A stretch of DNA of 41,334 nucleotides. Origin: Streptomyces sp. 13-12-16 (GTDB taxonomy: Bacteria; Actinomycetota; Actinomycetes; Streptomycetales; Streptomycetaceae). The stretch lies in the NCBI RefSeq assembly GCF_002114215.1, contig NZ_NCTE01000977.1, forward strand, positions 4,734 to 46,067. Reading direction: 5' to 3'. Positions 6,732 to 29,018 of the stretch are shown piece after piece; the stretch's first letter is position 1, and each line of letters begins with the position of its first letter. Both the position numbers and the translations under genes were made by a program. The notes beneath the pieces were generated by a model. The model searched no databases and was not told where the DNA came from. It saw only the letters and a list, made by a program, of their open reading frames with translations.

Positions 6732-6884
6732 GACTGCCCGCCCTCCCCGGCCTGCGAGGCGGACCGGCTCGATCCGTACAAGCCGTCCGACCCTCACAGA
6801 CCCCTCTCTCTGGTACACAAACGGCTATATCCTGGCACCAGTTGTGTCCGTGTAATCTCACGTTCGTCGGATGGAGCGCCGGCC
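6732..6884. promoter_or_regulatory. Divergent promoter region between WD40 and second NACHT genes
   Basis: This 153-bp spacer is the only divergent control region inside the NACHT/caspase block, so it should carry promoters for both directions. Its centre is relatively A/T-rich, with CTATAT near 6825-6830, and is flanked by inverted arms ACACAA (6815-6820) and TTGTGT (6842-6847). That is compatible with -10 elements on both strands and an operator spanning them. GGAG before the GTG at 6885 is the presumed ribosome-binding site for the NACHT gene. Confidence 0.45.
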
Positions 6885-9173
6885 GTGCACGACTACCGGC
6901 AGGCGTTCACCGCCCGAGCCGCCGCGACGTTCGCCGTCGCAGGTCTTTTGATGCTGTCCCTAGCTGCGCTGCTCGCGCAGACCTTATACGGCTGGAGCCC
7001 GCCACACATCGGGCGTCCGGTCTGCGCCGCCACCGCAGTCCTCGCGGCGGCCGCACTGGCCGCCCTGCACGCCGTGCGCGTGCTCTCGGCCACCGGAGAG
7101 GCACAGGACCTCTCCGCGCCCGCGCTCGCCGACAAACTCGCCGGCATCTGTGCAGCGCGTGAGCGGCGTCAGTTCGACCAGCTGGTGGAGACCGGAGCAC
7201 CGATGGACCTGCTGTTCCGGCGGTTACGTGACTCGGCGGGCCATCCGCAGGGAAGCGGCGCCAGTCGGCTGAGTGACGTCGCCTCCTACTACCGAGGCTG
7301 CGAGAATGAACGTCTGATGTTCCTCGGCGAGGGCGGGTCGGGCAAGACCGTCATCCTCGTCCATCTGCTCCTGCAGATGCTGGACGAGCGCGCGCCTGGG
7401 GGACTGGTCGCCTGGAGATTCTCACTCTCCCGGTGGGACACCTCACGGAACCTGTCCGCCTGGATGGCGGAGGAGATTTCCCGAGACACCCGGATACCGT
7501 TGGCCCAGGCCCAGGATCTGGTGACCCGTGGGCTCGTTCTGCCACTGCTGGACGGCCTCGACGAGATGGACCCCCCGCACACGCCGTTCCCGACCCGCGC
7601 CGCCGAAGTGGTCGAACAGCTCAACAAGGCCGAGCGCTTCGACAAGCCGATCCCGTTCGTGCTCACCTGCAGGACCGACACCCACGACAGACTCGTCAGC
7701 CGTGGGGCACGACTGACGGACACCGTCGCCGTCCAGATGCTCCGGCTCAGCCCGAAGCAGGTGCAGCGCCACATCAGGAGCGTCGCGGACGAAGAGCGCT
7801 GGGCGGACGTCCTCTCCCATCTGGAGAAGGACGCCAACGGCCGCCTCGCCCAATACCTCAACCTGCCCTGGCGACTGGCCATGGCGGTCATCATCTACGA
7901 CAAGAAGTCCGGTGACGGGTACGCGCGGGACCTCTCCGACCTCACAGCCCCGGGATGGTCCGACGACACACCACCCGTGACCGTGGGGCGGTTCGTCGAG
8001 GAACTGCTCAGCCGCCCCGCCGTCGCCCGCCGCCGCGAACCCACCCGCCGCACCCTCGCCACCCTCGCCGCGTACCTTCACGACAAGCGCGGCCGGGGTG
8101 ACGAGGGAAGGGCACTTCCAGGCGTGGAGGAAGGCAAGACGCTCTCGGGCGTGGACCTGGTCGTGCACGAACTGTGGCCGGTGGGCGGGCCGCGCGCCCC
8201 GCGCTACGTCACCGCCGCGCTCAGCCTGCTGCTGTGGATTCCAGCCGCCGCAGCCGTGCTCTGGGCCGTCGGACACATGGCATGGCCCTTCTGGCTGAAA
8301 GCCGTGGTATACGGCGTACTCGGTCTCTTCCCCGCTTACTCCGCCCACACGAGCCTCGCCCAGTGGCCGCATCCCCGTAACGTCGTACTGGGCAGATTCC
8401 GCACCCCGACGGGCGTCAGACGGCTCTCGGCCGCCGCGGCGGTGGGCCTACTCATGTTGATCCTCCTCGCGGCCACCGGTGCCCCGGGGTTCACCGCCGC
8501 CTATGCGGCCATGTTCGCGCTGATCTTCGGAAGCGGATCGGCCCTCGCGGTACGAGAGGGGGCGGACGTGCGGGTCCTGGCCGCGGTCGCTGCAGCCGTG
8601 GGACTGGTCTTCGGACTGGCCACCCGCCTCGCGCTGGGGTCGCTCGGCCCGGCCGGAGGCATGCTGGCCGGCACCGGCGGCGGCGGATTCGCCCTCGTGC
8701 TCGCGGTACGCGCGGCCCTGCGGGGCGGTGCCGAACCCGGCCACGTCCGCAACCCCGTGTTCGAGGATTTCATCGCCAACGACGTCCGGACCGCCTGCGT
8801 GTCGGGCTCCATGCTGGCGGCGATCGCCGCTGTCCTCCTGCACTACCTGCCGCTCTCGGCGTCAGCGCTTCAGGTCACCCTGGTGTCCGTCGGAGCCGGC
8901 TTCTCGCTCGGCTTCGGATTCGTCGCCGACGCCTGGCGGCGGCACATCGCGCTGCTCATCTGCTGCCGGGGCACGCTGGCCTTCCGCCTGACACACGTGC
9001 TGGCCCAGGCGCACGATGCCGGACTGCTCCGCCGCGCCGGCATCGCCTACCAGTTCCGTCACCTCGACCTCCGCGACCACTTCGCCACCCTCTCCGCCGA
9101 ACTCACCGGACACTGGCCGGGCGGACGAGGAACCCGGTCCGGTCCCCCTGCACCGTCCGCCAGAGAAAGGTAG
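6885..9173 (+). CDS. NACHT NTPase with N- and C-terminal membrane segments (paralogue 2)
   Basis: 762 residues from the GTG at 6885, chosen because GGAG lies just upstream and the two predicted membrane helices (about 12-32 and 43-65) then start the protein; the frame stays open well upstream, but that part has no sensible composition. Walker A is GEGGSGKT (148-155) and Walker B LPLLDGLDEMD (219-229). The C-terminal third contains several hydrophobic stretches, and the tail IAYQFRHLDLRDHFA nearly matches that of the protein at 1236-3242. The added N-terminal hairpin would put the NTPase on the cytosolic side of a membrane-anchored protein. It is followed after 7 nt by the serine hydrolase gene and then the caspase-STAND gene, forming a probable three-gene operon. 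A function as a membrane NTP-dependent switch is inferred. Confidence 0.85.
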   Translation: MHDYRQAFTARAAATFAVAGLLMLSLAALLAQTLYGWSPPHIGRPVCAATAVLAAAALAALHAVRVLSATGEAQDLSAPALADKLAGICAARERRQFDQLVETGAPMDLLFRRLRDSAGHPQGSGASRLSDVASYYRGCENERLMFLGEGGSGKTVILVHLLLQMLDERAPGGLVAWRFSLSRWDTSRNLSAWMAEEISRDTRIPLAQAQDLVTRGLVLPLLDGLDEMDPPHTPFPTRAAEVVEQLNKAERFDKPIPFVLTCRTDTHDRLVSRGARLTDTVAVQMLRLSPKQVQRHIRSVADEERWADVLSHLEKDANGRLAQYLNLPWRLAMAVIIYDKKSGDGYARDLSDLTAPGWSDDTPPVTVGRFVEELLSRPAVARRREPTRRTLATLAAYLHDKRGRGDEGRALPGVEEGKTLSGVDLVVHELWPVGGPRAPRYVTAALSLLLWIPAAAAVLWAVGHMAWPFWLKAVVYGVLGLFPAYSAHTSLAQWPHPRNVVLGRFRTPTGVRRLSAAAAVGLLMLILLAATGAPGFTAAYAAMFALIFGSGSALAVREGADVRVLAAVAAAVGLVFGLATRLALGSLGPAGGMLAGTGGGGFALVLAVRAALRGGAEPGHVRNPVFEDFIANDVRTACVSGSMLAAIAAVLLHYLPLSASALQVTLVSVGAGFSLGFGFVADAWRRHIALLICCRGTLAFRLTHVLAQAHDAGLLRRAGIAYQFRHLDLRDHFATLSAELTGHWPGGRGTRSGPPAPSARER

Positions 9174-9180
9174 GACCCGT

Positions 9181-10062
9181 ATGGCAGCCGTCGTAGGCAT
9201 CCACGGCATAGGCAAGGAACAACTCGGCCGCCGGCAGATGCTCACAGAGTGGGGCCCCGCCCTCGGGGACGGACTCGAGCGGGCGGCCGGCGGGCCGGTC
9301 GCCGTCCCCGCGTTCGACCTCGTCTACTACGCCGACCTGTTCCTCAGAAAGCCTTCGGACGGCTCCGCCCGCAAGGGCTCAGGACCGGACACGGAGGTCA
9401 TCACCTCCTGGCTCACGGACCTGAGCGACGGCACCACACAGGAGGAACTCCTCGACGCCCTCTCGGACATCGTCGACGCACAGGACATCGCGGACGCCGA
9501 GGCGGCACCGGCCAAGGGCTACACACGTGTTCCGACATCCGTCCAGAGAGTCCTGCGTGCCGTCGACCGCCGCTACGGCCCGGGAGCGGCCCTGCTGTAC
9601 GTGGGCGCCTTCCGGCAGGTGCGCAGATATCTGGGGGACCCGGCGCTCAAGCAGGAGGTGGACGACCGCGTCGACGCCGCCGTCCCCGAGGACTGCCGGG
9701 TGCTGATGGGCCATTCCCTGGGCTCCGTTGTCGCGTTCGAGTACGTGCGTCGGCACAGGCGCCGCCGCCTCGACCTACTGCTGACGATGGGATCGCCGCT
9801 GGGCCTGCGCATGGTGCGGTCCCGGATGCCCAATCCCCGCTACGGCGCGGTGCACGGCCTCCCGGTGGGGGTGCGTTCCTGGGTGAACGTCCTCGATCCC
9901 CGCGACCCCGTGACCGGCGGCAGGCATCTGGCCGACCGGTGGCCCAAGGTGGACGACCGGCAGGTCGACAACCAGGCCGACGCGCACTCCGTGACCCGAT
10001 ATCTCGGCAAACGGGAGACAGGGGCGGCGGTGCGGGAGGTCCTCGCGGCGACAACCCCGTGA
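9181..10062 (+). CDS. Alpha/beta-hydrolase (lipase/esterase-like serine hydrolase)
   Basis: This 293-residue protein opens with VVGIHGIG (residues 4-11), the oxyanion-loop strand of alpha/beta-hydrolases. The nucleophile elbow is GHSLG (177-181, Ser179); the likely acid and base are in DPRDPV (Asp242) and DAHS (His269), giving a complete triad. No signal peptide is evident, so it should act in the cytosol. The ATG at 9181 has AAAGG upstream. The gene lies 7 nt after the NACHT gene, and its last codons overlap the next gene's start (GTGA), implying coordinated expression with the caspase-STAND protein. It may be a lipase- or esterase-type effector of the system or a processing enzyme; the substrate cannot be read from the sequence. 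Confidence 0.8.
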   Translation: MAAVVGIHGIGKEQLGRRQMLTEWGPALGDGLERAAGGPVAVPAFDLVYYADLFLRKPSDGSARKGSGPDTEVITSWLTDLSDGTTQEELLDALSDIVDAQDIADAEAAPAKGYTRVPTSVQRVLRAVDRRYGPGAALLYVGAFRQVRRYLGDPALKQEVDDRVDAAVPEDCRVLMGHSLGSVVAFEYVRRHRRRRLDLLLTMGSPLGLRMVRSRMPNPRYGAVHGLPVGVRSWVNVLDPRDPVTGGRHLADRWPKVDDRQVDNQADAHSVTRYLGKRETGAAVREVLAATTP

Positions 10063-11933
10063 CGCAGGTCGCCGACGAGGCTGTCCTCAGACGCCACTTC
10101 GTGGCGATCGCGACCGCCGACTATGACGACCCGCACTGGCAGCCGCAGAAACTGCCGGTGGACGACGAGGTCCGCGTGATGCGGGACTGGCTCTGCGCGA
10201 GGACGCTGGGCCGACGGCGCTTCACCCCCCTCCACCCGCATCTCGCCGACAACCCGACCCTGACGGACATCAGCCACGCCCTGCAGGACCCCGAGCCGCA
10301 CGCGCGGTGGCGTGAGGCAGACGCCGCGGTGGTCTACATCACCGGTCACGGCACGGTCGCCGACGAGACCCACTGGAGTGTCCTGCGGCGCACGATGAAG
10401 GGTGGCCACGCGGGCACCGCGCAGCGCACCGGTCAGCTCATCGCCTGGCTCGCGGAGAGCGGCATCGAGCACCTGCTGGTCATCGTCGACGAGTGCTATG
10501 CCGAGAAACTCAGCGCCGATCTCGTCCAACGGGAGAGCACACTTCCCCCCGGGTGGCTCATCCTGCCGAGCGCCGCGCGTGACGAAGAGGCGGACAGCCG
10601 CGCGCTGACCACGGCCATCTCAGAGTTCCTCGAGGACGTCGTGGCCCGCCCATACGCGTACAAGCCCGGCCCGCTGCTCCATGTCGAGGAGTTCGTCCTG
10701 GGCGTGCAGAGCAGACTCGGACGAACGCTCCACCCTCTCGGATCCCATCGTTACGGACCGCATCCCTGTCTGCCGCATCCCGCGTACACCGGTGCCCCGG
10801 GGGGCGAGGACGACGAAGAGGACGCCTTCGGCCGCCGCGCACTCATGCACCGGCTGATCCGGGCCGCCGCCGGACCGCCGCAGGCGCTGCTGGTGACGGG
10901 GTGCGCGGGCAGCGGGAAGTCGGCGGCCCTGTCACAGCTGGCGGCACTCGGCGGTTCGTACCGGGTGGACGCGTTCGTGGACGCCGCGGGGCTGAGCGGC
11001 ACCGAGGTCATGGCCCGGATCTTCGCGGCGCTGGCGATTCCCGCCCCTGGCCGGCCGGGAGGACCGCCCTCGCCGCAGGAGTGGCTCGAAGCCTGGGCGG
11101 ACTGGCGTGACAGCACGTCGGAACCTGTCACCGTGGTGGTGGACGCGCCCGACGAGGCCGCCGACCCTGACCGTCTCCTCCAGGATCTGCTGGGCCGGCT
11201 CGAGCCGCCGCACACCAGACACCGCCGGCTGCGGCTGATCGTCGGCATGCGGTCGCCGGGCGGAGCGGAGACCGCCGACTCGGAGCCCGCCACCCACACC
11301 CTCGCGGACCGTGCCGAAGCGCTGCTGCGCGCCGAGCGCATACGGCTCGACGACCCCCCCTACTGGCGGCGGGACGACATCGCCGCCTGCGTGCGGGCCG
11401 TTCTGCTCGGCGACGAGAACTCCCCGTACGCCGAGCAGGAGTCCCTGGCCGACCAAGTCGCCCGTGCCGTCGCCGACGCCGCCGGACCGTCGTACCTAAT
11501 GGCCCGCGCGGCCGCCGGGAATCTCGCCGCCCGGGACCGTGCCGTAGACCCCCTCGCCCAGGAATGGCGGGCCGTCCTCACAGAAGGTCTCGTGGGGATC
11601 TTCCGAGATGACCTGCGCCGGATCTTCCCCAACCCGGGGGACCGGCTCGTCGCGGTGGAGCTGCTCCGCGCCGTGGCGTACGCGTACGGCCGGGGAATGC
11701 CGCGGCAAGGTATCTGGCCCGTGGTCGCCAACGCCCTGTCCCGCGACTCCCCTTCGCAGCCCTACGGTGACGAGGAGATTGCCTGGCTGCTCGCTTCCCG
11801 CGCAGGGGCGTACCTCACCGCAGACCAGGAGGACGGGGTGACGCTCTACCGGCTGTTCCATGACACGTTGCGCGAGGTGATCACCGGGCACTGGCGGGAC
11901 CTGGTGGGCGAGGCCCCGGACCGCCGGGACTGA
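10059..11933 (+). CDS. Caspase-like peptidase fused to STAND P-loop NTPase
   Basis: 624 residues. The N-terminal domain is a C14 caspase/metacaspase fold: the catalytic His is in VVYITGHGT (His97) and the catalytic Cys in VIVDECYAE (Cys146), each after a hydrophobic strand as in the family. After a linker the P-loop domain has Walker A GCAGSGKS (281-288) and Walker B TVVVDAPDEA (358-367), with a sensor-like RLIVGMRS. The protein ends soon after YRLFHDTLREVITGHW, the winged-helix end of a STAND ATPase, and has no WD40 or TPR sensor of its own. GTG at 10059 overlaps the hydrolase stop (GTGA), the basis for the start choice. By family, ligand-triggered oligomerisation would activate the protease to cleave host targets. 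The likely sensor partner is the WD40 protein at 4377-6731. Confidence 0.85.
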   Translation: MTQVADEAVLRRHFVAIATADYDDPHWQPQKLPVDDEVRVMRDWLCARTLGRRRFTPLHPHLADNPTLTDISHALQDPEPHARWREADAAVVYITGHGTVADETHWSVLRRTMKGGHAGTAQRTGQLIAWLAESGIEHLLVIVDECYAEKLSADLVQRESTLPPGWLILPSAARDEEADSRALTTAISEFLEDVVARPYAYKPGPLLHVEEFVLGVQSRLGRTLHPLGSHRYGPHPCLPHPAYTGAPGGEDDEEDAFGRRALMHRLIRAAAGPPQALLVTGCAGSGKSAALSQLAALGGSYRVDAFVDAAGLSGTEVMARIFAALAIPAPGRPGGPPSPQEWLEAWADWRDSTSEPVTVVVDAPDEAADPDRLLQDLLGRLEPPHTRHRRLRLIVGMRSPGGAETADSEPATHTLADRAEALLRAERIRLDDPPYWRRDDIAACVRAVLLGDENSPYAEQESLADQVARAVADAAGPSYLMARAAAGNLAARDRAVDPLAQEWRAVLTEGLVGIFRDDLRRIFPNPGDRLVAVELLRAVAYAYGRGMPRQGIWPVVANALSRDSPSQPYGDEEIAWLLASRAGAYLTADQEDGVTLYRLFHDTLREVITGHWRDLVGEAPDRRD

Positions 11934-13096: not shown

Positions 13097-14800
13097 TCAG
13101 GCGCTGGTCTGCTCGTTCGAGACGGATCGGTGTGAGCCGCTGTAACCGAGCAGCATGGCCTCCAGCGCCTCCTCGATCCGCTCGCTCTCCCCGGCGGGCA
13201 GGTGCGCGCGCCCTGCCAGGATCCGATTGAGCAGCCACATCTTGTGTGGACCTTCGACCTCAGGAATCCAGTGGCTCACCCCGAGCCTCTTCTGCCACTC
13301 CTTTCTCGAGGATGCAAGTGACCTCTCGAATTCGTCCATCACCTCTCGGGCCTCGGGATCCCGGGGGAAGACAGACACGACACGCCTGACCCGGATGTGC
13401 TCGTGTCCCACCACGGGCGAATCTGTTTCAAGGGTAATTCCCTCGCCGCTTTCCTGCAGGTCCAGATCAATTTTCGTGCCGGGCAGACTGAAGAGCCGGT
13501 CATTAATGCGCATGACATGCCCGTCCGACAAGGACCGTGTGATCCATCGAACGTTTTGAGTCAGCGATTTCACTGTCGAGTACAGGCCCGACAGGATGAT
13601 GTAGGAGACCACGTTCATCCCGTATCGTCGGCAGGCATCCAACGCCAACCGGTTGACCTCGGCCCCGTCGGACCCGAGTTTCTTGTTGTACGCCTCCAGT
13701 TCATCAGGATCGAAGGTCTCCAAGCCCATGCTCACCCCGGTGAATCCTGCGCGCCGTGTCGCTTCGAGAAGGCGGGTGTCGACCGTGAGGGTCCTCGGGT
13801 CGACCCAGGTGTCGACCCGGGCCTTGCCGTGATAGGTGACGTTCCTACCGTCGAGGGCGTGAACCTCGTTCCGAACGTCCTCGAGCGCTTGGAGATCTTC
13901 CAGGAGATCGCTCCTCGAACCGCCTCTGAGGAAAAACAGGTCATCCTTGAACATCACCTTCCGGGCCTGCGGATTCTTCAGGAGCAGATTCCGCACGTAT
14001 GCGGCTAGGTCGTGTTTGCGGATGGCGATGACCTTGGCGGTCCTGCCGTTTCCGTCACGGTGAAAGGTGGTCGTACTGCAGAATGCGCAGCCCATGGGGC
14101 AGTAGTTACTCGTGTACGGCTTGATGGTGAGGATCTTCCCCAGCAGGATCGGATCATCGAGCTGCTCCGCGGAATAGTGGGCCTTCAACTGGTCCCAGTA
14201 CAGTTCCAGTCCCACATCCGTGAAGTCCACTGCGAGCGTGGCGCGCGTGAATTCTTCCACCGTGAACGGTTCGGGGTACCCGGTGAAGAATGACCTTTCA
14301 CCGCCTCTGATATAAAATCCTCGAACGTGAGACAAATACCGCCCGGGGTTCCTCCCGATCGCATCGGTCCCGTACTCGTGAACCTTTTTCAGCAGTTCAG
14401 TGAGAGGTTTTTCACCTTCCCCGCGAGCGATCAGACTGAGATTCGGAACGTGCCGAAAAAGCAGCTCTCTCGAGAGTCCCGCTTGCTGGCCTCCTGCTAT
14501 ATGTAATGCATGCGGGAGTATGTCGCCGGCGTCCAGCATGTGGCCGATGTCCCGCGACAGGGTGTCATGCAGAGGGCTGTACCCAACGATCTCGAATCTC
14601 GCTTCCTCCAGGAGGCCATTGAGTGTCTCGCGGGCGTCCGCGTAGAGGTTAGGATCGAAGCAGGTCACTTCGATCCCTTCCTTGAATTCGCTTTCCAGCC
14701 ATTTCCTGATGCGGTGAATACCGAGGGGTGCCGAATTGAAGTAGGTTCCGTGATTCTCGCTGTCGTCGGCCTGGATGAGGATCATTTTGATCTTGTTCAT
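13097..14800 (-). CDS. B12-binding-domain radical SAM enzyme
   Basis: 567 residues. The radical SAM cluster motif CxxxCxxC is seen as YCPMGCAFCS (Cys234, Cys238, Cys241), coordinating a 4Fe-4S cluster and S-adenosylmethionine. The N-terminal ~150 residues match the layout of B12-binding (Rossmann) domains of this superfamily: GYSPLHDTL near 73-81, AGGQQ near 102-106 and GEGEKPL near 127-133. The canonical DxHxxG loop is not evident, so cobalamin use is uncertain. Such enzymes do methylations and other radical chemistry on natural products, lipids or cofactors. The coding sequence has clearly more A/T-ending codons and A/T-rich runs (for example 14290-14520) than its neighbours, a sign of acquisition from elsewhere. 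The start ATG at 14800 has a weak ribosome site (GGGCGG). The epimerase follows it. Confidence 0.87.
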   Translation of the reverse strand: MNKIKMILIQADDSENHGTYFNSAPLGIHRIRKWLESEFKEGIEVTCFDPNLYADARETLNGLLEEARFEIVGYSPLHDTLSRDIGHMLDAGDILPHALHIAGGQQAGLSRELLFRHVPNLSLIARGEGEKPLTELLKKVHEYGTDAIGRNPGRYLSHVRGFYIRGGERSFFTGYPEPFTVEEFTRATLAVDFTDVGLELYWDQLKAHYSAEQLDDPILLGKILTIKPYTSNYCPMGCAFCSTTTFHRDGNGRTAKVIAIRKHDLAAYVRNLLLKNPQARKVMFKDDLFFLRGGSRSDLLEDLQALEDVRNEVHALDGRNVTYHGKARVDTWVDPRTLTVDTRLLEATRRAGFTGVSMGLETFDPDELEAYNKKLGSDGAEVNRLALDACRRYGMNVVSYIILSGLYSTVKSLTQNVRWITRSLSDGHVMRINDRLFSLPGTKIDLDLQESGEGITLETDSPVVGHEHIRVRRVVSVFPRDPEAREVMDEFERSLASSRKEWQKRLGVSHWIPEVEGPHKMWLLNRILAGRAHLPAGESERIEEALEAMLLGYSGSHRSVSNEQTSA

Positions 14801-14817
14801 TCGAACCGCCCGTCCGG

Positions 14818-14825
14818 ATACGTAT
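14818..14825. promoter_or_regulatory. ATACGTAT palindrome upstream of the radical SAM gene
   Basis: A perfect 8-bp palindrome lies 18 bp upstream of the radical SAM start codon in a locally A/T-richer stretch. It could be an operator or part of the -10 region; the evidence is position and symmetry only. Confidence 0.25.
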
Positions 14826-14923
14826 GGAGAAGAGCCCGACGACGTCGGAGGGCGACCTGCCTCGTGTCGGCACTGCGGCGCTCAAGAAACCTGACGTTAG
14901 CCGCCGTTGTCGGCGGTGGATAG

Positions 14924-15070
14924 GCCCCCGGCGGCCAACGCCTTGGCGACTACGCCCAGGCGGGTAAGGGTGGCGGGCTGCGCTGGCTGCACAGTCTCGG
15001 TGACGTCGCTGGCCTGACTCTGACCGAGGCCGTGGCACTGGTGGCCGCGCCGCGGTTCATGCCGTCCTGA
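14924..15070 (+). pseudogene. Possible coding remnant (49 codons), family unknown
   Basis: From a stop at 14921 to a TGA at 15068-15070, the + frame encodes a protein-like string containing GLRWLHSLGDVAGLTLTEAV with good third-position G/C bias. No start codon with a ribosome site is visible. It directly abuts the decayed IS110 tail, so it may be the truncated 3' end of a gene disrupted by that element. I cannot name the family. Confidence 0.3.
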
Positions 15071-17234: not shown

Positions 17235-20200
17235 TCACCGCGGCCCGGCCGAGATGAAGGTGACACCATCCTCGGTGAACAGGGCAACTCCTTCACCCGG
17301 GCAGGGCAGCACATGCAGGATGCGTGCGCCGGCGTCGTAGCTCTCGTCGTCTTCATACAGGACGGGAACGAGTTCCGGTGGCGCCGAGCGTGTGCCCCGG
17401 CTGTGCAGTTCGTCGGGCGGTTCCTGTGTGGTCTCTTCCTCCCACTTTAGGGAGAATCCCGTCAGCAGGCTGCCGTTGGCGGCGTAGAAGCGGCCGGGCT
17501 CGGAGTCCTCCGCAGCCACCACCTGGTCCACTCGACGGTCCAGCTGGAAGATGTCTCCCGCGATACCGGGCCATCGTGTTCTGCGCCACCAGCAACGCCG
17601 TACAGGCTCGGGGTCGGTCGCGGCGGCCGGCAGGAGATGGACTTCCAGTGCGGTTCCGGGTGTGGGATAGGTCCGTTCTCGCGCGCGAAGGGCCGTCATG
17701 TGGCCGTCGGCGTTGATAACGGCGTCCGAGTCGCGTAGCGCATTGGGGGTCGCGTACCAACTGCCGTCCGCCTCTGGTGGGAGCAGGTGGATCGGGGTGG
17801 CCTCCGCGCGGTCCGTCGAGACCATCCGCCATGCCCGGCCACTGCCCAGCCTGCGGCTGTCCGCGGGCGGGATACAGAGGTAGGGGCCCCGGCCGGCGAA
17901 GGCGTGCAGGGATTCCGGCTCTGCTCCATCGGGACAACTCACCGGAGTGAACGTGTCGGAGGTTGTGTCCCACAACAGGTCCGGTCCCTCGTCGACCGTG
18001 AGGTACAGCAGGTCAGCTGCCCTCAGAGCGTGCATGCCGACGACTTGTCCGGGATGCCCGATCGGCATGCGGCGCACTGTCATGGGCTGTTCGGGGTCCC
18101 AGAGCACCACGGAAGCGCTGCCCTCGTAGAGGTCCATGACCAGCTTGTTGTGGAAGGCGAGGACTACGAGACGTCCTTGGATCACGGCCCAGTCGATGGC
18201 CGTCACCTCGTCGGGCGAGACGGGGATGTTCCAAGGCGGAGCGAGCCGGGCGCCGGAGCGCGTGTCGATCAGAGTCGCCCTTCGCTGTTCGCTCAGGTGG
18301 CCCTCGTACGGAGTTGTCACGAGGAGGACGGGCCGCCCTCGGTGTGTTCCGGTCCGGCCTGGGACGCCCGTCAGCGGCTCGGGGACCTTGGGCTCTCCGG
18401 GGTACCTTTCCCCCCGCATGGCCCACAGGCCGCCGGGAGGCCACGTGGACGGATCGAAGGGGTCACGGGCGTAGGGGCCGGCCTTGCGCAGGCGCAGCCG
18501 CTTCTTCTCAATTCCGAGTGTGTGGCGTTCGCCGTGCACGGTGAGTTCCACAGTGTCGGGGCGCAGTTGGCAGGGAGGGCCGAGCCGGGTGCCGGTGTGC
18601 GGGTCGCGCTCGTAGCGTTCCCGACAGGACGACAGGAACAGTCGGCGGCGGCCGTCGAACTCTTCGGTCCACACGGACTTGTAACTCGGGTATCTTTCCC
18701 AGCGGTTGCGACGCGTCTTTCGGTAGTCCGGGTTAGTGTCCAGGACCTCGCCGGTGAGCGGGTCCCACAGGTCGATCGCGAATTCGTCGTCGGTCATGGT
18801 GGCGCGCAGCCGGAAGCCCGCCATGGCCCGCTCCTGCGGCCGGTCCTCGCGGTCGAGCAGGACGAGGGACGTGAGTCCGCCGGCCACCTCCCAGTCGGAG
18901 AGGCGGGTTCCGTCGCCCAGTGCCCGGCACTCGACGTGTCCGTAGGACAGACACACCACTGCGGGCTCTCCCCGCACCGTGGTGAGGGCGAGGCCGTTCA
19001 GCGGCAGCGCGTCGATGTGTTCGGGTGTGTGCATGGGCTGTGGTGAGTCGGCGTCGAGGTCGAAGCAATACAGGCGGTCGGTCCAGGTCGCGACCACTGC
19101 GACGGTGCGCTCGCCGATACGGCCCAGGGCGCAGTGCCGTGCAGAATTCTGTGCGCCGTGCTCTTCCTCCTGGTCGAAGAGGAGATCGGGAGACAGGTGG
19201 TCGCCGTCATCCATCGACCAGCGCCTCAATCGGTTATCGGTGTGGTAGACGACGAGTGTTTTCCTGCGGGCGTTGGTCACCGAGCCGAGGAGGTCGCTGG
19301 CCTTTGCTCGGCCAACCGGCACGAGGTCGCCGATGGGGGACCGTGTTTCGAGGTCGAACACCTGAAGGAAGTCCTGGTGGTGCCGGCTGCCGAGCACGAC
19401 GCAAACGGGCTGCCCGAGCCACGAGAGCGCGATCATGTCACGGGGGCCGCCTTCGAAACCGGTGGGCAGTTCGTCGTCGAGGATGAGTCTGCGACGGCTC
19501 CAGCGGGTGGCGCGGCGCGGTGGGCAGCAGCAGTCATTAAGTCGGTCCGCGAGCGTGTCGGCGCCGCTGCGGCGGGCTGCGGCTTGAAGGATCTGTGCCC
19601 GGACCGTGGCCGGAGTGTCGCGGTGCAGTGCCGTCGTGGCCCGCAGAGCCTGCGCGGTGCGCGGGACGTCCGCGCGGTTGACCGCGGTCAGCAGGGCTGT
19701 CTGGTCGCTGTGCAGGAGGAGCCCAGGGTCATCCAACAGCGTGTGCAGCGTGTGCGCCGACCGCGCGTGGGTGGTGAGGTGGTCGAGGGCGTAGCGGGGC
19801 GCGGCGTGCCAATCGGGTGTCGCGCCGTCCCAGGGCACCGCACCGATCAGCGCTTGGGCGATCGCCTCGTGCGCGGCCTCCTCGTCGTGCCCCTTCGCCA
19901 GCCAGTGGGCCAGGGCGGTGTGGGAGAGACGGAAGGACGTGTCACCGGCCGCGGTGTCGGTCACCGTCGTAGGCACGAGGTAGTCGCCCACGAGCCGGAG
20001 TAACTCCGTTACGTCGTGGGTGGTATAGCGGCGCCCGCTCAGGGCGGACGCCGCCTGTGGCCATACGTGGGCGGACGACAGACCGGCACCGCGGGCGAAG
20101 GCGAGGGGCCGCAGGAGCCCCTCGGCCCAGGGCAGCCGGCCGCCAAGCCGCTCGGCGGTCTCCGCCCTCAGCGCACCGTGGATGCCGTCCTCGGCCAACT

Positions 20201-21743
20201 GGCGCCATTCCTCGCTGCCCGGAAGAGCGGTGGAGGACCGCCGTGCCAGCGCCCTGGCGAGCAGACCGGCCAACAGGAAGGAGGGCTCGCCCCGATCGGC
20301 CACCTGCCGGACGGCTGCGGCGAGCAGGTGCGGCGGAGCGCCGCGCCACACGCTGTCCGGAACGGAATCGGTCAGGTCCTGGCGAACGGCGTGCTCCAGT
20401 GCCTTCCGGTCCGCGTAGTTTGGGCTGTCCAGGTCGATCGTCACGAGGTCGGGACGTTCCAGCAACGGCAGACGGTGCGATCTTGTGCCGATGAGCAGCC
20501 TCACCCGGGGCACATCGGTCTCGATCAGGGGCACGAGCAACGTTCGACACAACTGCTCGGGCCGGTCCGCCTCGTCTAGCGCATCCAACAGTACGACCGG
20601 CGCGGCTTCCTCGGCCGGTGCGGGTGCCGTCAGGATGTCAGCGACGGTCTCGGCATCCACTCCGCAGGCGGCGCCCAGTACGCGTGTGACCCTGGCCCGG
20701 TCCATCGCGGTCACGTACAGGTGCGCCGTCAGCACGGGCCAGCCACCCCGGGAGGGAGCCGTGCACGCGTTTGGAACGGTCTGCCGCCCGTACTCGTCGT
20801 GGGCGAGTGCCGTCTGCCGCAGCAGTGCGGACTTCCCCGAGCCCATTCCGCCCGTGACCACCAAGGCCGTTGCTGCGGCTGTGTCCGGAGCCGGGTGGAG
20901 CCATTCCTCGATGCCTCGGATGGCCTCTTCCCGCCCGAAGAAGGCCCCGTGTGGGCTCGCTTGCCGCCGGGTGGTGGCGGTCGGCTGCAGGTATTCCTCG
21001 GACAGCTGCCGCAGCTCGTCGGCCGGAGCCGGAGCCTGTGGAGCGGGCGATGTCCTGCTCTGGCCATGTGGCCGCCCGCGGTCGGTCAGCGTGCTGAGGC
21101 TCGGCGCTCGCCCGCCGTCCGTCTCCAAGTGGCTTACGAACTCGGCGTCCTGGGTGAAGGCATAGGCCGGTACCGCATGCAGGCGCCGGTCGTCGAAGTG
21201 CGCGTCGTCCGTGATGACCACCCCGACCAAGCAGTCCCCGCAAAAGACGGCGGCACCCGACACGCCGGCCCAGTTATGTCGGTCCGGATGCGGACGCGGG
21301 GCGGCACTCTGGTCCAGGACGAGACCGCCGGCGAGCCCCTGGCCGAAGGTGGGGAGCCGACCGGTGAGGTGCTCGACGCGCGCTACCTCGTCGTCGTACC
21401 GGGCGAAGCTCGGAAAGCCCAGGGCCTCGTAGTCGAGGACTCCCGCGACCGGACGCCCCCAGAGCACCTCGCCCGGCACGTCCACCGGCCGGTCGAGCCG
21501 GATCAGCGCGACATCACGCGCGGTGCCCGCCCAGCACAACCGACCAGACCGGTGTTGCCGGTCGCCGTGACCGGGGTGCCCGATGACGACATCGATACGC
21601 TGGTGTGGCTTCCGGTCATGGGTGGCGGTGACGACATGCAGAGCGGTGAGCACAAGCCGCGGAGTGAGGACGTAGCCGGAGCCGCTGGCTTGGACGTACT
21701 CGGCATCCCCTGCGCGCACGGCGGCCAGGCGGCGCGGATCCAC
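17235..21743 (-). CDS. Trypsin-like protease fused to STAND NTPase and beta-propeller-like region
   Basis: 1502 residues. The N-terminal S1 trypsin-like domain has a complete triad: His36 in VLTALHVV, Asp77 in ARDVALIRL and Ser162 in GVSGAAVF. After a linker come a P-loop with Walker A GGMGSGKS (298-305) and Walker B VVLLDALDEAD (383-393), the STAND sensor RLLIGTRSH, a winged-helix end FRLSHTALAHWL and a helical linker. The last ~750 residues are repeats of four-stranded sheet type (for example VAVVATWTDRLYCFDLD, ALTTVRGEPAVVCL), likely one or two divergent propellers acting as sensor. The start GTG at 21743 is two bases after the trypco2 stop (TAG-CC-GTG); the frame stays open to 21803. Its trypco2 partner marks it as one of the trypsin-based conflict systems described for multicellular bacteria: signal binding would release the protease. 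Confidence 0.87.
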   Translation of the reverse strand: MDPRRLAAVRAGDAEYVQASGSGYVLTPRLVLTALHVVTATHDRKPHQRIDVVIGHPGHGDRQHRSGRLCWAGTARDVALIRLDRPVDVPGEVLWGRPVAGVLDYEALGFPSFARYDDEVARVEHLTGRLPTFGQGLAGGLVLDQSAAPRPHPDRHNWAGVSGAAVFCGDCLVGVVITDDAHFDDRRLHAVPAYAFTQDAEFVSHLETDGGRAPSLSTLTDRGRPHGQSRTSPAPQAPAPADELRQLSEEYLQPTATTRRQASPHGAFFGREEAIRGIEEWLHPAPDTAAATALVVTGGMGSGKSALLRQTALAHDEYGRQTVPNACTAPSRGGWPVLTAHLYVTAMDRARVTRVLGAACGVDAETVADILTAPAPAEEAAPVVLLDALDEADRPEQLCRTLLVPLIETDVPRVRLLIGTRSHRLPLLERPDLVTIDLDSPNYADRKALEHAVRQDLTDSVPDSVWRGAPPHLLAAAVRQVADRGEPSFLLAGLLARALARRSSTALPGSEEWRQLAEDGIHGALRAETAERLGGRLPWAEGLLRPLAFARGAGLSSAHVWPQAASALSGRRYTTHDVTELLRLVGDYLVPTTVTDTAAGDTSFRLSHTALAHWLAKGHDEEAAHEAIAQALIGAVPWDGATPDWHAAPRYALDHLTTHARSAHTLHTLLDDPGLLLHSDQTALLTAVNRADVPRTAQALRATTALHRDTPATVRAQILQAAARRSGADTLADRLNDCCCPPRRATRWSRRRLILDDELPTGFEGGPRDMIALSWLGQPVCVVLGSRHHQDFLQVFDLETRSPIGDLVPVGRAKASDLLGSVTNARRKTLVVYHTDNRLRRWSMDDGDHLSPDLLFDQEEEHGAQNSARHCALGRIGERTVAVVATWTDRLYCFDLDADSPQPMHTPEHIDALPLNGLALTTVRGEPAVVCLSYGHVECRALGDGTRLSDWEVAGGLTSLVLLDREDRPQERAMAGFRLRATMTDDEFAIDLWDPLTGEVLDTNPDYRKTRRNRWERYPSYKSVWTEEFDGRRRLFLSSCRERYERDPHTGTRLGPPCQLRPDTVELTVHGERHTLGIEKKRLRLRKAGPYARDPFDPSTWPPGGLWAMRGERYPGEPKVPEPLTGVPGRTGTHRGRPVLLVTTPYEGHLSEQRRATLIDTRSGARLAPPWNIPVSPDEVTAIDWAVIQGRLVVLAFHNKLVMDLYEGSASVVLWDPEQPMTVRRMPIGHPGQVVGMHALRAADLLYLTVDEGPDLLWDTTSDTFTPVSCPDGAEPESLHAFAGRGPYLCIPPADSRRLGSGRAWRMVSTDRAEATPIHLLPPEADGSWYATPNALRDSDAVINADGHMTALRARERTYPTPGTALEVHLLPAAATDPEPVRRCWWRRTRWPGIAGDIFQLDRRVDQVVAAEDSEPGRFYAANGSLLTGFSLKWEEETTQEPPDELHSRGTRSAPPELVPVLYEDDESYDAGARILHVLPCPGEGVALFTEDGVTFISAGPR

Positions 21744-21745
21744 GG

Positions 21746-22189
21746 CTAGTCCGCCCGCCCCGGCGGGTCCTGCTCCCCGTGCGCGGCGGCGCCTGGTTCC
21801 CACTGCTCCTTCCGTGTCTCCCGCACCTGTGTGTTGCGACCACCGAATGCTTCGTCGCGGACCTTCAGCTTGAGCGTGAGCTTGTGAGTGCGGGTGCTGC
21901 CGCGTTCCGCGCCGAGATCCGCGCTCACCACGCCGAACGCCAGCTTCACCCCTGGCCTGACATCCGAACGCAGCTCCAGTAGGAGTTCGAGGGTGGCCTC
22001 CTCGATCTCGAACCTCAGCCGTCGCCGCGCACCGGCCTCCTGCGCCGCGTCCAACTCGGCCCTCAGCGTCTCAAGCGCCTCCGTTAGACCACCCGGCTCT
22101 CCCTCAGGAGGCTGCTGGCTCCCGTCGTCCCAGCCCTCCGTGTCGCCCCAGCCGTCTCCGTGGTTCTGTCGATGTTCGGCTTCGTACAC
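21746..22189 (-). CDS. Trypsin-co-occurring domain (trypco2-like) protein
   Basis: 147 residues. The segment LTEALETLRAELDAAQEAG, then RRLRFEIEEATLELLLELR, then VKLAFGVVSADLGAERG and THKLTLKLKV, follows the helix plus four-strand pattern of trypco2 proteins, which neighbour trypsin-like conflict proteases. GTG at 22189 is chosen for its GGGGGGA site; the frame is open to 22279. The first ~35 residues are Gly/Asp/Glu-rich and probably disordered, with a charged tail. Its stop is two bases before the protease start, so the two are translationally coupled. It probably binds the protease-STAND protein as adaptor, inhibitor or recruitment module; its exact role is unknown. Confidence 0.72.
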   Translation of the reverse strand: MYEAEHRQNHGDGWGDTEGWDDGSQQPPEGEPGGLTEALETLRAELDAAQEAGARRRLRFEIEEATLELLLELRSDVRPGVKLAFGVVSADLGAERGSTRTHKLTLKLKVRDEAFGGRNTQVRETRKEQWEPGAAAHGEQDPPGRAD

Positions 22190-22629: not shown

Positions 22630-25272
22630 TCAGAACACTCGTAGAGGGGAGTTCTCTGCCAGGCACTGCGCGCGGATCCGTTCGCCGGCGTCGGCGAAGG
22701 CAGGGAGGTCCTTTCTCTCCGCGGCGCGGACCAGGTCCTTTAGCGCCATGGCAAGTGCGGTGTTGTGGCCGTCCTCGGCCAGCCCCACGGCCTCGAAGAG
22801 TGCTGCGGTCTTGTCGGCTCCGGTCATGTGGTCCGCGCTGCGCATGATGTCGTCGAGCTTCTGGCAGGCACGCGCGGTGGCCCCATGGGAGGCCACTTCA
22901 GGCTGGCCCGCGCTCGTGTCGACTGTCAGCCCGGCGAGGACCACCGTTAGGGCCAGTGCGCCGGCTGCGGCGAGGACGGCCCGCTGTCCGCGGGAGACAG
23001 GCGAGAAACCGGTGAAGATACGGGTCGGCGTGTCTTGCTGCCGTGTCCACCAGGAGCGCACCGCGGCGGCCGATGCGGCTCCGACGACCGCGACCGCGGC
23101 GCCCGCCACCACCGTCCGCAGCAGGCTGTCGCGTATGGCGGAAGGGGCGATGTTGAATCGACAAGGCCCGGGGGCGAGTGCGAGCGCGTCCCAGCATCCG
23201 CCCGCGACGGCCGACCCGAGGAACACCGCCGTCACGAGGCACCCGGTCACGAATGCAGCCATCAGTCCGAAGAGGACCGCGGGACGGCCGTGCGCGTGGT
23301 GCAGCCGTGCGGTGACGAACGCTGCCACTACCCCCTGCAGCAGCACGGCCGCGATGACCAGCCAATGCTCGAACACTCCGGCGTAGCCGGGGCTGCCGCG
23401 GAGCTCTTCGGGTACGCGGAAGTGGATCGACAGGCGGGCTCCAATGACTACGACGGTGAAAACGGCCATTCCCCCGAGGGCGGACATGACGACCCACCGG
23501 GCCCAGCCGGACGATGGTGCGTACGTGCCCCGACGCCACAGCACCGCGAGCGGAAGGGCCCAGAGAGTGACTGCCGCCAGCACCGTGGGTGTCCAGCGAT
23601 AGAAGAGCAGGACCATGGGATAGTTCAGCGCCGCCCATGCCCACAGTGGTCCGGCGGGGACGATTGCCGAGGCGGCGCGGTGGTCGGCCACGAGCCCCTC
23701 GTTGACCACGTGGAGACCGTCCGCGAGGTCGTAGAGCAGTAGCCACCAGGCGAGCAGGACCGCCAGCGGCACGACCGCAGCTACCCAGACGACGGGCCAG
23801 GCTCGACTGAGAGGACGGCCCAGGGGATCGAGCCAGACCATAGCCCCCTGCGCCATCCAGCGGAAGAAGAGCACCATCAGCACGCCGAGAACGAGAGACC
23901 ACATTCCCGCAGCCCGCGACGGAAGGAAGGTTCCGCCATCGCCGATGCCGTTGTCCGCCGCGATGTAGCGGCCCGCCACAAGACCGACGGTCAAACCAAC
24001 AGCGGGAAGCACCGTCGGGGGCCGGGCCCCGTCCGCCGCTTCCGGTCCTCGGCCCCTCGCCCAGGCGCCCGCCCGCCATATTCCGGCCCCGGTCACAGCC
24101 ACCACGGAAGGTGCGAGCACGAGGGCGGCGATCCAGAAAAGCGTTCGTGTGTCCGGACCGATAAAGGCTGTCAACAACATCGTGTTCAGACTGGACACCC
24201 CGACCGTGGCGGACAGGCCAACAACCAGGCACTCGGTGAAACCGAGACGGAACAGACCTTCCGGACATCGGATCTGGCACGCACGCTGCCGACCAGTGGG
24301 ATGCAGCCGTAAGGGACCCCGCAGCCACAACGACCGCCGCGGTTCGGTTGGAGACGGGGCGCTCAGCAGTCTCAGCAGCCCCGCCCGGGTGCCGCTCCAG
24401 GAGGCGGCACGGACATCGGCGGCAATTTCGCGGACACGTAGCACGGATGCCGCCGTCAGACATACGACGCCGACGAGAACCACCGCGCGCCAGCTCACGT
24501 CGAATGCGTTCTCGGTGTCCGTCGCGGCCAGCGCGATAGTGAGCGGAATGAGCCCGAGCGGCACGAACGACACGATCAGCGCCACGGTGAGGTAGGTGAT
24601 GTCGATATCCCGGTTCCGGATGTGGGCCAATTCGTGCAGTACCACGGTGCGCAGGTGTTCCATGTCGTCGGCGCTTTTGTCGATGAGTCCGTCGTTGAGC
24701 CTCACGCGGTAGTCGCCGAGCCTGCCGAAAGCGAGGGCGCCGGCCTCCTTGCGGTTGGGGGCCACGTAGAAACGCGGCTTCACGCGCAGCCCAGCCTGTG
24801 TCACCAGGGACTCAAGAACCTGTGACAGCGCGGCTTCGCCGGGATCGATGTCCGGCCGCAGGGGTGCGAGCCGTTGCCACTTGGTCCGCAACCACGGGAG
24901 GACCAGGTGGACGACGGCGGTGGTGAGTGCCAGCAGCGCCAGGCCCGCGAGAACCCACGCTGTGCTCTCCTGCCGACCGGGCGCGGTACACGCGAGGAAC
25001 TCCTTTGTATAGCTTCCCGGTGCGGCTCCCCGTGGGACGGCGGCCTCCAGTACACAGTCGCGATAGTGGTCCGCGGCGCCGGGACGGATCGCGTAGTAGA
25101 ACAGGTTGTAAATGAAACCGGAGGTACCGAACAGAGCGGTGACGAGCAGGACGAAGCGGAACTTCACGCCGTCGGGCAGGCCGAATGGGTCGGGGTGCAC
25201 CTGGCCTGCATGGTCACAGCGGTGCTCGGCCTGCCACGCACCTGCGCGAGCAGACGGCAGCTTCCATGCCAT
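22630..25272 (-). CDS. M48-family membrane zinc metallopeptidase
   Basis: 880 residues. The zinc motif HEXXH appears as VVLHELAHIRN (His213, Glu214, His217), and the third ligand is probably Glu282 in REIAADVRAA, as in M48 (HtpX/Ste24-like) peptidases. There is one membrane helix near 38-60, another near 105-125, a pair after the HEXXH site and about ten more hydrophobic segments through the C-terminal half, far longer than HtpX (~300 residues). A soluble tail (about 800-880) ends the protein. It starts with ATG 25272 overlapping the previous gene's stop as TAATG, so it is co-translated with the 184-residue protein. M48 enzymes cleave membrane or misfolded proteins. Proximity to the trypsin-STAND/trypco2 pair, on the same strand, suggests but does not prove a shared system. 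Confidence 0.87.
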   Translation of the reverse strand: MAWKLPSARAGAWQAEHRCDHAGQVHPDPFGLPDGVKFRFVLLVTALFGTSGFIYNLFYYAIRPGAADHYRDCVLEAAVPRGAAPGSYTKEFLACTAPGRQESTAWVLAGLALLALTTAVVHLVLPWLRTKWQRLAPLRPDIDPGEAALSQVLESLVTQAGLRVKPRFYVAPNRKEAGALAFGRLGDYRVRLNDGLIDKSADDMEHLRTVVLHELAHIRNRDIDITYLTVALIVSFVPLGLIPLTIALAATDTENAFDVSWRAVVLVGVVCLTAASVLRVREIAADVRAASWSGTRAGLLRLLSAPSPTEPRRSLWLRGPLRLHPTGRQRACQIRCPEGLFRLGFTECLVVGLSATVGVSSLNTMLLTAFIGPDTRTLFWIAALVLAPSVVAVTGAGIWRAGAWARGRGPEAADGARPPTVLPAVGLTVGLVAGRYIAADNGIGDGGTFLPSRAAGMWSLVLGVLMVLFFRWMAQGAMVWLDPLGRPLSRAWPVVWVAAVVPLAVLLAWWLLLYDLADGLHVVNEGLVADHRAASAIVPAGPLWAWAALNYPMVLLFYRWTPTVLAAVTLWALPLAVLWRRGTYAPSSGWARWVVMSALGGMAVFTVVVIGARLSIHFRVPEELRGSPGYAGVFEHWLVIAAVLLQGVVAAFVTARLHHAHGRPAVLFGLMAAFVTGCLVTAVFLGSAVAGGCWDALALAPGPCRFNIAPSAIRDSLLRTVVAGAAVAVVGAASAAAVRSWWTRQQDTPTRIFTGFSPVSRGQRAVLAAAGALALTVVLAGLTVDTSAGQPEVASHGATARACQKLDDIMRSADHMTGADKTAALFEAVGLAEDGHNTALAMALKDLVRAAERKDLPAFADAGERIRAQCLAENSPLRVF

Positions 25273-27275: not shown

Positions 27276-27922
27276 TTGAGCGTTCGTCCCCGCGTGGGGA
27301 CGTCACCGCGGATCGTGTCGGATGAGCTGTGGGACCGCTTGGCGCCGTTGCTGCCGCAGCGCGAGCAGCGCTTCCGGTATCCCGGCCGCAGGCCGCTGCC
27401 AGACCGGGAGGTGCCCTGCGGGATCCTGTACGTGCTGCACACCGGAATCCAGTGGGAGCACCTGCCTCAAGAGCTCGGCTTCGGCTCCGGCATGACGTGC
27501 TGGCGCAGATTGCGGGACTGGAACGAGGCCGGCGTCTGGCAACGCTTGCATGATGTGCTGCTGGCCGAGCTCAACGCGGCCTCCCGGCTGGACTGGTCCC
27601 GTTGCATGGTCGACTCCTCGCACGTTAGGGCGTCAAAAGGGGGAGCCAGACGGACCCGTCGCCGGTCGATCGTGGGCGGGCTGGCTCGAAACACCACCTC
27701 ATCACCGACGGACACGGCACTCCGCTTGCGGTCCTGCTGACTGGCGGCAATCGCAACGATGTCACCCAGTTGCTGCCCTTGCTCGACGCGGTCCCGCCTG
27801 TCCGTGGCCGCGTCGGACGGCCGCACCGCAAGCCTGACTCGCTGTTCGCGGACCGCGGCTACGACCATGACGTCTACCGTGATCAGGTCCGAGCTCGTGG
27901 CATCGTCCCGGACGCCCCTATA
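27276..27922 (+). pseudogene. IS5-family (IS427-like) transposase, truncated by IS110
   Basis: Frame 1 encodes IVSDELWDRLAPLLPQREQR, HTGIQWEHLPQELGFGSGMT and CMVDSSHVRASKGGA, the N-terminal half of IS5/IS427 DDE transposases (first catalytic Asp in VDSSH). At about 27635-27650, after a TCAAAAGGGGGA tract, the coding sense moves to the -1 frame: SPVDRGRAGSKHHLITDGHG, LLTGGNRNDVTQLLPLLDAV, FADRGYDHDVYRDQV (second Asp in ADRGYD), RARGIVPDAP. The IS427 group normally makes its transposase by such a shift, so this may be programmed and not decay. The protein is cut at RGIVPDAP, where the IS110 element begins; the final catalytic Glu region (VVERTFAWL in relatives) is missing, so it is inactive. 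Start is TTG 27276 or GTG 27294. Confidence 0.82.
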
Positions 27923-29018
27923 ACGCAGGGGTGCGGGAAGCCGGTCTGACCAGGTTGAAGACCTCGCGGGCTGCGTATCGCTTGAGGCATCGGACGATCT
28001 CACGTCGGGTCTTGCCCTCCTGGGTGCGGCGTTCGTAGTACTCCTGGGTGCGTGGGTCGTGACGCAGGCGGGTGAAGACGATGCGGTGCAGGGCCGCGTT
28101 GGCCTGCCGGTCGCCGCCGTGGTTGAGCCGGCGCGTGCTCCGCCGGCCGGAGGAGTACTCGATGGGACTGACTCCGCAAAGGGCGGCAAAGGACGCCTCG
28201 GTGTTGAGCCGCTCCGGGTTGTCTCCCATGGTGATCAGCAGGGTGACGGCGCTGTCCGGACCGATGCCCACCGGTACGAGCAGTTGCGGCGCGTGGCGTT
28301 CGACGAGCCGGGTCAGTCGCTGGTTCAGCTCATTGATCTGTCCGGTGAGCTGCTCGATGCGTTCAGCGAGCATGCGTAATGTCATGTGGGTGGCCTGGGC
28401 CACCGCGTCCTCGTCTCCCCCACCACCGTCGTGCGGGCCGAGGCGCGCACAGGTGCGGAACAGCTCGGCGTTGCCGAGGCTCGACATGCGTTCCCGCAGG
28501 GCGGGGTCGGCGATGACCAGGACGGCCTTGAGCTGGTTGATCGCCTGGGTGCGGGCCTTGACCGCGGAGTCCTTGGCGAGTTTGTAGATCCGGGCGCTGT
28601 GCACCGGACCGTCGCCGGATTTCGCCCGGGCTCGGGCGCGACCGCTGAGCACGGCTCGCGCTGCGGCCTGGGCATCGAGCGGGTCCGACTTGCCGAGCAG
28701 CCGGCGGGCCGAGCGGTCGGGCCGGTTCACTTCGAACACCTGAATCTGCTGAGCGAGCAGATAACGGGACAGGCCCGCGCCGAAGGTGCCGGTGCCCTCC
28801 ACGCCGGCCCGGCGCACCGTCCCCCGCTTGCGGGCCCAGACAAGCAGTTGTCGGTAGCCGGCCGCCGTCGCGGGAAAGGACTCGGTTCCCAGGACCTTCC
28901 CGAGCGGGGAGATCACGGCGGCGACATGCACCTCGCCGTGCGTGTCCACGCCCAGGACGACCTCGCGCCGAACGAGAGGATCCGTGCTCGAGGAGGTGCT
29001 GCATTGTCGGGTCTTCAT
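27918..29018 (-). CDS. IS110-family (DEDD) transposase, apparently intact
   Basis: 366 residues. The RuvC-like DEDD residues are Asp25 (GVDTHGEVHVA), Glu74 (AGVEGTGTFG), and Asp112 and Asp115 (KSDPLDA). The C-terminal transposase_20 domain has the conserved GIGPDSAVTLL and LCGVSPIEYSSGRRS, with the candidate catalytic Ser289/Ser290. No stop or frameshift interrupts it, so the element may be active. Its 3' end sits inside the IS5 remnant, giving the order of events. IS110 enzymes are guided by a bridge RNA made from the non-coding end of the element. A decayed relative is at 15065-15275. Confidence 0.92.
   Translation of the reverse strand: MKTRQCSTSSSTDPLVRREVVLGVDTHGEVHVAAVISPLGKVLGTESFPATAAGYRQLLVWARKRGTVRRAGVEGTGTFGAGLSRYLLAQQIQVFEVNRPDRSARRLLGKSDPLDAQAAARAVLSGRARARAKSGDGPVHSARIYKLAKDSAVKARTQAINQLKAVLVIADPALRERMSSLGNAELFRTCARLGPHDGGGGDEDAVAQATHMTLRMLAERIEQLTGQINELNQRLTRLVERHAPQLLVPVGIGPDSAVTLLITMGDNPERLNTEASFAALCGVSPIEYSSGRRSTRRLNHGGDRQANAALHRIVFTRLRHDPRTQEYYERRTQEGKTRREIVRCLKRYAAREVFNLVRPASRTPAL

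Follow-up and report, generated by a model that had tools for sequence, protein, structure and literature searches.

A predicted two-gene conflict unit of Streptomyces that combines a trypco2-linked trypsin with a STAND switch and a strongly diverged WD40 tail

A protease that carries a STAND NTPase and a long propeller-like tail on one chain, and that is encoded directly behind a trypco2 gene, raises the question of whether the locus holds a new kind of machine, or at least a new kind of sensor, and from which families its parts were drawn. Such a pair lies on the reverse strand of the window, i.e., the whole 41,334-nucleotide stretch of DNA analysed here, which comes from the high-GC, 8.7 Mb genome of Streptomyces sp. 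13-12-16. A preliminary description, made from the letters of the sequence, had suggested that the sensor type may be new. The analysis leads to a different answer, namely that the unit joins known parts in an unusual way and does not represent a new kind of machine. Its features are as follows.

21746..22189, reverse strand: trypco2 gene, matching PF19631, with ortholog P0004 and a likely GTG start at 22189
21863..22090, reverse strand: Trypco2 domain (Pfam extent), residues 64-139 of P0002
17235..21743, reverse strand: protease gene (trypsin–STAND–diverged WD40 tail), 1502 aa
21129..21743, reverse strand: trypsin-like domain, residues 1-205, with the triad H36, D77, S162
19509..20951, reverse strand: STAND NTPase and helical region, residues 265-745
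20829-20852, reverse strand: Walker A, GGMGSGKS, residues 298-305
20571-20597, reverse strand: Walker B, VVLLDALDE, residues 383-391
17238..19511, reverse strand: diverged WD40 tail, a putative sensor, residues 745-1502, about 758 residues

The full triad, the P-loop and the tail of about 750 residues that had been read within the 1502 residues thus correspond to H36/D77/S162, GGMGSGKS and the 758-residue tail. The open frame of trypco2 extends back to 22279; the GTG at 22189 is preceded directly by AGGGGGG and aligns with a Met of the ortholog in G304, another genome of the genus. The longest mechanical ORF of the protease begins at 21803 and would encode 1522 aa, and the GTG start at 21743 agrees with the frame of the G304 ortholog and with the annotated starts in five plasmid relatives. 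With the trypco2 stop codon ending at 21746, the two genes are separated by two bases, as noted before, and this gap is kept in G304 (10426 and 10423 in L010). Because trypco2 is encoded only two bases upstream of the protease, the two genes probably share a transcript. Scans of the locus for promoters and terminators gave no signal exceeding chance.

The pair in G304 is equal in arrangement, its protease being 71% identical and its trypco2 about 70% identical to those of the window, and its Walker A and B motifs differ from the window's at residue 299 only. The dN/dS values between the two are 0.32 for the protease (trypsin 0.31, STAND 0.30, tail 0.35) and 0.42 for trypco2. Since these values lie at 0.30-0.42 across the parts, the pair is under purifying selection and is a real conserved unit, not a product of chance. 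The flanks of the two pairs are unrelated: in the 18 kb of G304, no counterpart of the other window genes was found (frames of at least 60 residues, E<=1e-5), with the exception of the window's second STAND gene, which shows a 124-residue similarity to the protease itself, and every other match came from overlapping frames at the trypco2 and protease genes. Of 392 genus genomes, two contain the complete tail, namely the own genome and G304, and in a class-wide sample of 394 it was found in the own genome and in none of the other 393; both searches scored the two best candidates per genome, so that absence is here a statement of lower sensitivity. The other tail matches in the genus, two and eight weaker ones, cover small parts of it, and a separate search found the whole tail in none of 60 other relatives. 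Two scans of genome contigs for relatives found none, and neither the tail against plasmids nor the whole protein against phages gave a match.

Several other genes of the window deserve a description of their own. A long WD40-repeat protein (4377-6818, reverse strand, 813 aa) has a mechanical frame that overlaps by about 240 bases that of a gene for a NACHT protein (6576-9173, forward strand, 865 aa). The latter is followed by the second STAND gene (9249-11933, forward strand, 894 aa), which is the own-genome match of the protease's STAND region, contains a caspase-like stretch (profile, E 4e-10) and has no detected WD40 blade. The NACHT, WD40-repeat and other STAND genes in the window form a STAND/WD40 gene cluster. 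A Radical SAM protein, which also gave a weak B12-binding match, is encoded at 13097-14800 (reverse strand), and the GC content dips around this gene, to 0.59 in 13501-15000 vs. 0.67-0.70 on either side. Upstream of trypco2, a gene at 22630-25272 (reverse strand) encodes an M48 family metallopeptidase-like protein of 880 aa. It was considered as a member of the unit and excluded because it has no counterpart in the fetched flank of the G304 ortholog. An IS110 family transposase gene (27918-29018, reverse strand) may mark a region prone to insertions.

The smaller partner is the more easily identified of the two. Its product matches PF19631 with an E-value of 5.5e-21 and 75 bits vs. a cut-off of 24.2, so that the profile match on which the earlier trypco2 assignment hung was indeed found. 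Kaur et al. (2020, PMC7159879) define Trypco2 by its occurrence next to trypsin-like peptidases of conflict systems, and the consulted portion contains no experiment on its role; in both the window and G304, the gene adjoins one for a trypsin-like peptidase. In the genus, trypco2 is present in 127 of the 199 genomes searched. From the matches listed, a spread of 40 loci was picked by hand (L191 and L214 being cut short by contig ends); 33 of the 40 contain a trypsin frame, and neither the window's STAND region nor its tail was found in any (E<=1e-3). A Pfam scan covering 30 of the 33 partners (leaving out L181, on the opposite strand, L197, distant, and L199, short) identified Trypsin_2 in 29, NACHT in 18, TPR_12 in 10 and nSTAND5 in eight, and WD40 is absent among the 25 families listed of the 30 obtained. 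Trypco2 with a trypsin–NTPase–repeat protein is hence a common pattern, in which the window unit has an uncommon switch and sensor, given that the sampled loci lack this STAND and this tail. Apart from the combination, the parts of the unit are ordinary for the genus. The other trypco2 match in the own genome (L013, 6989-8717, contig C973) is oriented divergently beside a trypsin-like gene and does not lie upstream of it.

The affinity of the trypsin-like domain was examined by identity, tree and neighbourhood. The triad is identical in all 44 aligned trypsin domains, an alignment made without the fetched trypsin frames L012, L181, L197 and L199. Scored alone, the domain reaches 21.5 bits with PF00089, over the cut-off of 20.6, and 25.6 bits with PF13365, under the cut-off of 27.6; the whole protease scores below both cut-offs, and a PDB sequence search with the domain gave no match. 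When the other 43 rows are ranked by their match to the domain, trypco2-linked trypsins fill the first six places, with identities of 72, 49, 43, 44, 43 and 35%. Among these, the four closest trypco2-linked trypsins other than the ortholog, at 43-49% identity, carry either a TPR tail (L005, L122) or a VMAP-C tail (L006, L121). Seven trypco2-less trypsins in the set, six from trypsin–STAND proteins of the window's STAND family and one from a trypsin–nSTAND1 protein, showed no significant match to the window trypsin (best E 5.7). Phylogenetically, the window's trypsin branches within the trypco2 group (100/99), in a six-row set of window, ortholog, L005, L122, L006 and L121 (97/94, or 95/94 with L012 added). 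The added row, absent from the first tree and comparison, belongs to a trypsin–NACHT–AAA–TPR protein of 2003 residues in the own genome (L012, 3676-9687, contig C804), which lies near a contig end and whose remaining 736 upstream bases contain no trypco2; its trypsin is 38% identical to that of the window (E 2e-22) and also falls inside the trypco2 group. Because this trypco2-less protein nests there, the split, as judged from the sequences, runs between trypsin subfamilies and not strictly by the presence of trypco2. On plasmids, trypco2 stands directly upstream of the protease in 5/5 loci opened (from 30 records with a trypsin match), and 26 of the 34 plasmid records with a match are from Streptomyces. 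A trypsin–nSTAND1 protein of the own genome (L011, 3747-8168, contig C212, 1473 aa) has a weak propeller match and differs in family from the window protease; trypco2 was not found in its 13 kb contig.

The STAND core has other relatives. Residues G301, G303, K304, D387 and E391 and the downstream R421 are invariant across 42 aligned STAND proteins, an alignment that left out L088, and the whole-protein Pfam scores stay under their cut-offs (AAA_16, 29.8 vs. 32.6; nSTAND1, 24.5 vs. 27.1). The STAND region was matched in 73 of 246 genus genomes, own genome included, at E<=1e-10. It is 31-39% identical to 40 close relatives, mostly the best-scoring ones (good matches skipped include G105:C700, G072, G505 and G525), and nearly all of these are caspase types, with a caspase-like domain ahead of the STAND region in 39/40 by blastp, Pfam Peptidase_C14 in 36/40 and Pfam WD40 in 36/40. 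Fourteen further loci, partly inspected, include 13 caspase-like ones. The 20 weaker relatives, which are the next matches on the list with a few skipped, comprise five caspase-like, six trypsin-like and nine proteins without assignment, these nine lying outside the Pfam scan. Trypco2 was found in none of the loci of these 60 close and weaker relatives, contig ends truncating some of the loci. The window protease itself has no Pfam Peptidase_C14 match, its N-terminal domain being the trypsin. Two scans of viral contigs returned relatives of the STAND region only, at three loci on two contigs, of which L124 and L125, on one contig, are caspase-like and the third is L126.

The identity of the tail, the part for which a new sensor type had been considered, was less apparent. 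Scanned alone, it matched no Pfam family at E<=0.1, and the Pfam WD40 signature was not found. A profile built from 40 WD40 tails (39 from STAND relatives and one from a Nonomuraea protein) gave 63.7 bits on the window tail and 51.1 bits on the G304 tail, compared with a maximum of 12.9 bits in 1000 shuffles, all searches being run with every HMMER filter off and a hand-set search space. The reverse search, with the two tails against the 40 relatives, was weaker (best E 7.4e-6, 5/40 over the inclusion threshold), and hhalign aligned residues 11-520 of the 758 tail residues at 96.9% and E 1.4e-10, an E-value for one test in a single comparison; the last ~240 residues have little homology support. 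A single-blade WD40 model found seven weak blades in each tail, window and G304. Four and five of these, respectively, have an i-E below 0.1 (search space of one) vs. at most two in 300 shuffles, and the rest of the protease gave three blade hits, none better than 0.33. Blade counts in the 40 relatives were 8-14 in 33, 19-20 in five, six in one and none in one, and few detectable blades (3 to 6) were also found in L128, L129, L132, L134, L135 and L136. Worn WD-like blade ends can be read in the window tail as FDLETRS, WSMDDG, FDLDADS and LWDPLTG. By these profile comparisons, the tail is a strongly diverged, worn WD40 tail, homologous to the ordinary WD40 tails of STAND relatives. The architecture of trypsin, STAND and propeller-like tail proposed earlier thus stands, as does the remark that the usual WD signature is missing; the new sensor type was rejected on the match to the WD40-tail profile together with the blade hits, and a worn WD40 tail makes it unnecessary.

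AlphaFold, given the window sequence alone, returned a pLDDT of 37.9 for the whole tail and of 46.2 for a 356-residue part with groups of three to four strands. With no confident fold predicted, the label "propeller" leans on sequence-profile homology. A Foldseek search with the low-confidence 356-residue model returned 40 PDB entries at E<=0.001. Most are proteins that we take to be propellers and three are DNA sliding clamps; they were given little weight because the TM-scores were no higher than 0.33 among the matches listed. Sequence searches of the PDB gave weak matches to RACK1 and WDR5 with the protein and to RACK1 with the tail, at E-values of 0.01 at best. The lack of both a Pfam family and a confident fold would suit a tail that is an unrelated beta-rich sensor and not a WD40 propeller; against a profile score far over all shuffles, the blade hits in the tail and, for what they add, the presumed propellers among the local PDB matches, this reading is highly improbable. 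The intact, conserved trypsin domain and its trypco2 partner belong to the trypco2-linked family, and the STAND region and tail have their affinities with the caspase–STAND–WD40 family. The sequence identities of the trypsin and STAND parts favour an exchange, and the unit appears, with about an even chance, to have arisen by swapping a caspase-like effector for trypsin and trypco2 on a STAND–WD40 body. Equally balanced is the fuller reading of a rare exchange within a bacterial NLR-like family, after which the WD40 sensor would have diverged to the point of likely recognising a different ligand. The trees do not prove an effector exchange, because the AU test does not reject either the pair's trypsins held with the seven trypco2-less trypsins (p-AU 0.231) or the eight trypsin–STAND rows joined as one clade (p-AU 0.235), and because the branch that leads to the pair in the STAND tree is long and only weakly placed. 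A clade of the six trypsin–STAND rows without L130 and L131 was rejected (p 1.4e-5), and these two also proved to be trypsins. The same unrejected groupings leave room for an older trypsin–STAND–WD40 lineage that gained or kept trypco2 without any exchange, of which the trypco2-less trypsin–STAND proteins with recognisable WD40 repeats (L130, L131, L140, L146 and the shorter L145, in the stretch fetched) could be other members. However, the window trypsin, so close to its trypco2-linked relatives, has no significant match to those five, and the STAND region is 31-39% identical to caspase-type relatives vs. 29-32% to those five, a smaller difference, which makes such a lineage a rather unlikely origin.

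What the unit does can be predicted from its parts. As is established for the class, STAND proteins switch by means of ATP and assemble into oligomers upon sensing. The pair is somewhat more probably than otherwise a two-gene conflict unit with an immune-like, probably abortive-infection, role, and we infer that it senses a threat and brings about cell death. At rest, the WD40-like tail would hold the STAND switch off; on recognition of an invader- or damage-derived protein by this tail, the STAND region would bind ATP and oligomerise, and the trypsin domains, brought together in this way, would cut a target of the cell or of the invader and bring the cell to a halt. Switch, sensor and protease would thus act on one chain, and Trypco2, the partner encoded alongside, is most likely the protease's dedicated regulator or substrate adaptor. 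NTP-dependent assemblies have been proposed for such conflict systems in the consulted part of PMC7159879, and lysis by LypABC depends on the NLR-like ATPase partner as well as on the catalytic Ser of its trypsin-like protein, according to the available part of PMC13236601. A housekeeping or developmental proteolytic switch would be in keeping with the statement, in the same portion of PMC7159879, that work on bacterial STAND proteins has treated them mainly as NTP-dependent regulators of transcription, but it is distinctly unlikely in view of the rare, patchy tail (2/392 genus genomes and 0/393 others class-wide), the unconserved flanks and the other STAND and WD40 genes nearby.

Exchangeable effectors, switches and sensors are regarded as the building blocks of bacterial STAND conflict systems. 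With a protease and partner that resemble one family and a switch and sensor that resemble another, a compact two-gene layout and an ortholog, the unit lends itself to tests of effector exchange and of what Trypco2 does. If exchange is true, it would allow proteases of unrelated folds to be tested as interchangeable outputs of one STAND switch.

The combination of trypsin/trypco2 with STAND–WD40 is not described in the portions of PMC7159879, PMC10907252, PMC13236601, PMC3501461 and PMC9218822 covered here, subscription papers and supplements lying outside this scope. Membership of Avs1 was ruled out (20.6 bits vs. a cut-off of 1500), the likeness to AVAST type 1 (Avs1b protease) being confined to the trypsin-like stretch. 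A VMAP ternary system was likewise ruled out, as the protease is without VMAP-C and no MoxR/vWA match was found among the 18 window ORFs scanned, a subset of the window's ORFs that includes the pair. The LypABC and CARD-NLR systems, in the part of PMC13236601 available, also pair a trypsin-like peptidase with an NLR-like STAND ATPase; however, they use separate proteins, CARD and TPR, and a trypsin–endonuclease as third protein. The trypco2-less trypsin–STAND–WD40 proteins (L140, L146) have the same domain order but a distant trypsin, WD40 repeats that Pfam recognises and no trypco2 in the stretch fetched. The caspase–NACHT/STAND–WD40 proteins (metacaspase-NACHT-WD40, in the consulted part of PMC3501461) share a homologous STAND core and a WD40-derived tail, whereas their effector is caspase-like in place of trypsin with trypco2, and the WD40 repeats of the window are far more diverged. 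Trypsin–NTPase–repeat proteins that are linked to trypco2 in Streptomyces-type genomes, together with the VMAP ternary systems (Kaur et al. 2020, PMC7159879, in the portion consulted), resemble the unit in having trypco2 immediately upstream, a protease of the same trypsin subfamily, an NTP-dependent switch and a repeat tail; theirs are built with NACHT, nSTAND5, TPR or VMAP-C, whereas the window's protease combines a caspase-family STAND with a WD40-derived tail.
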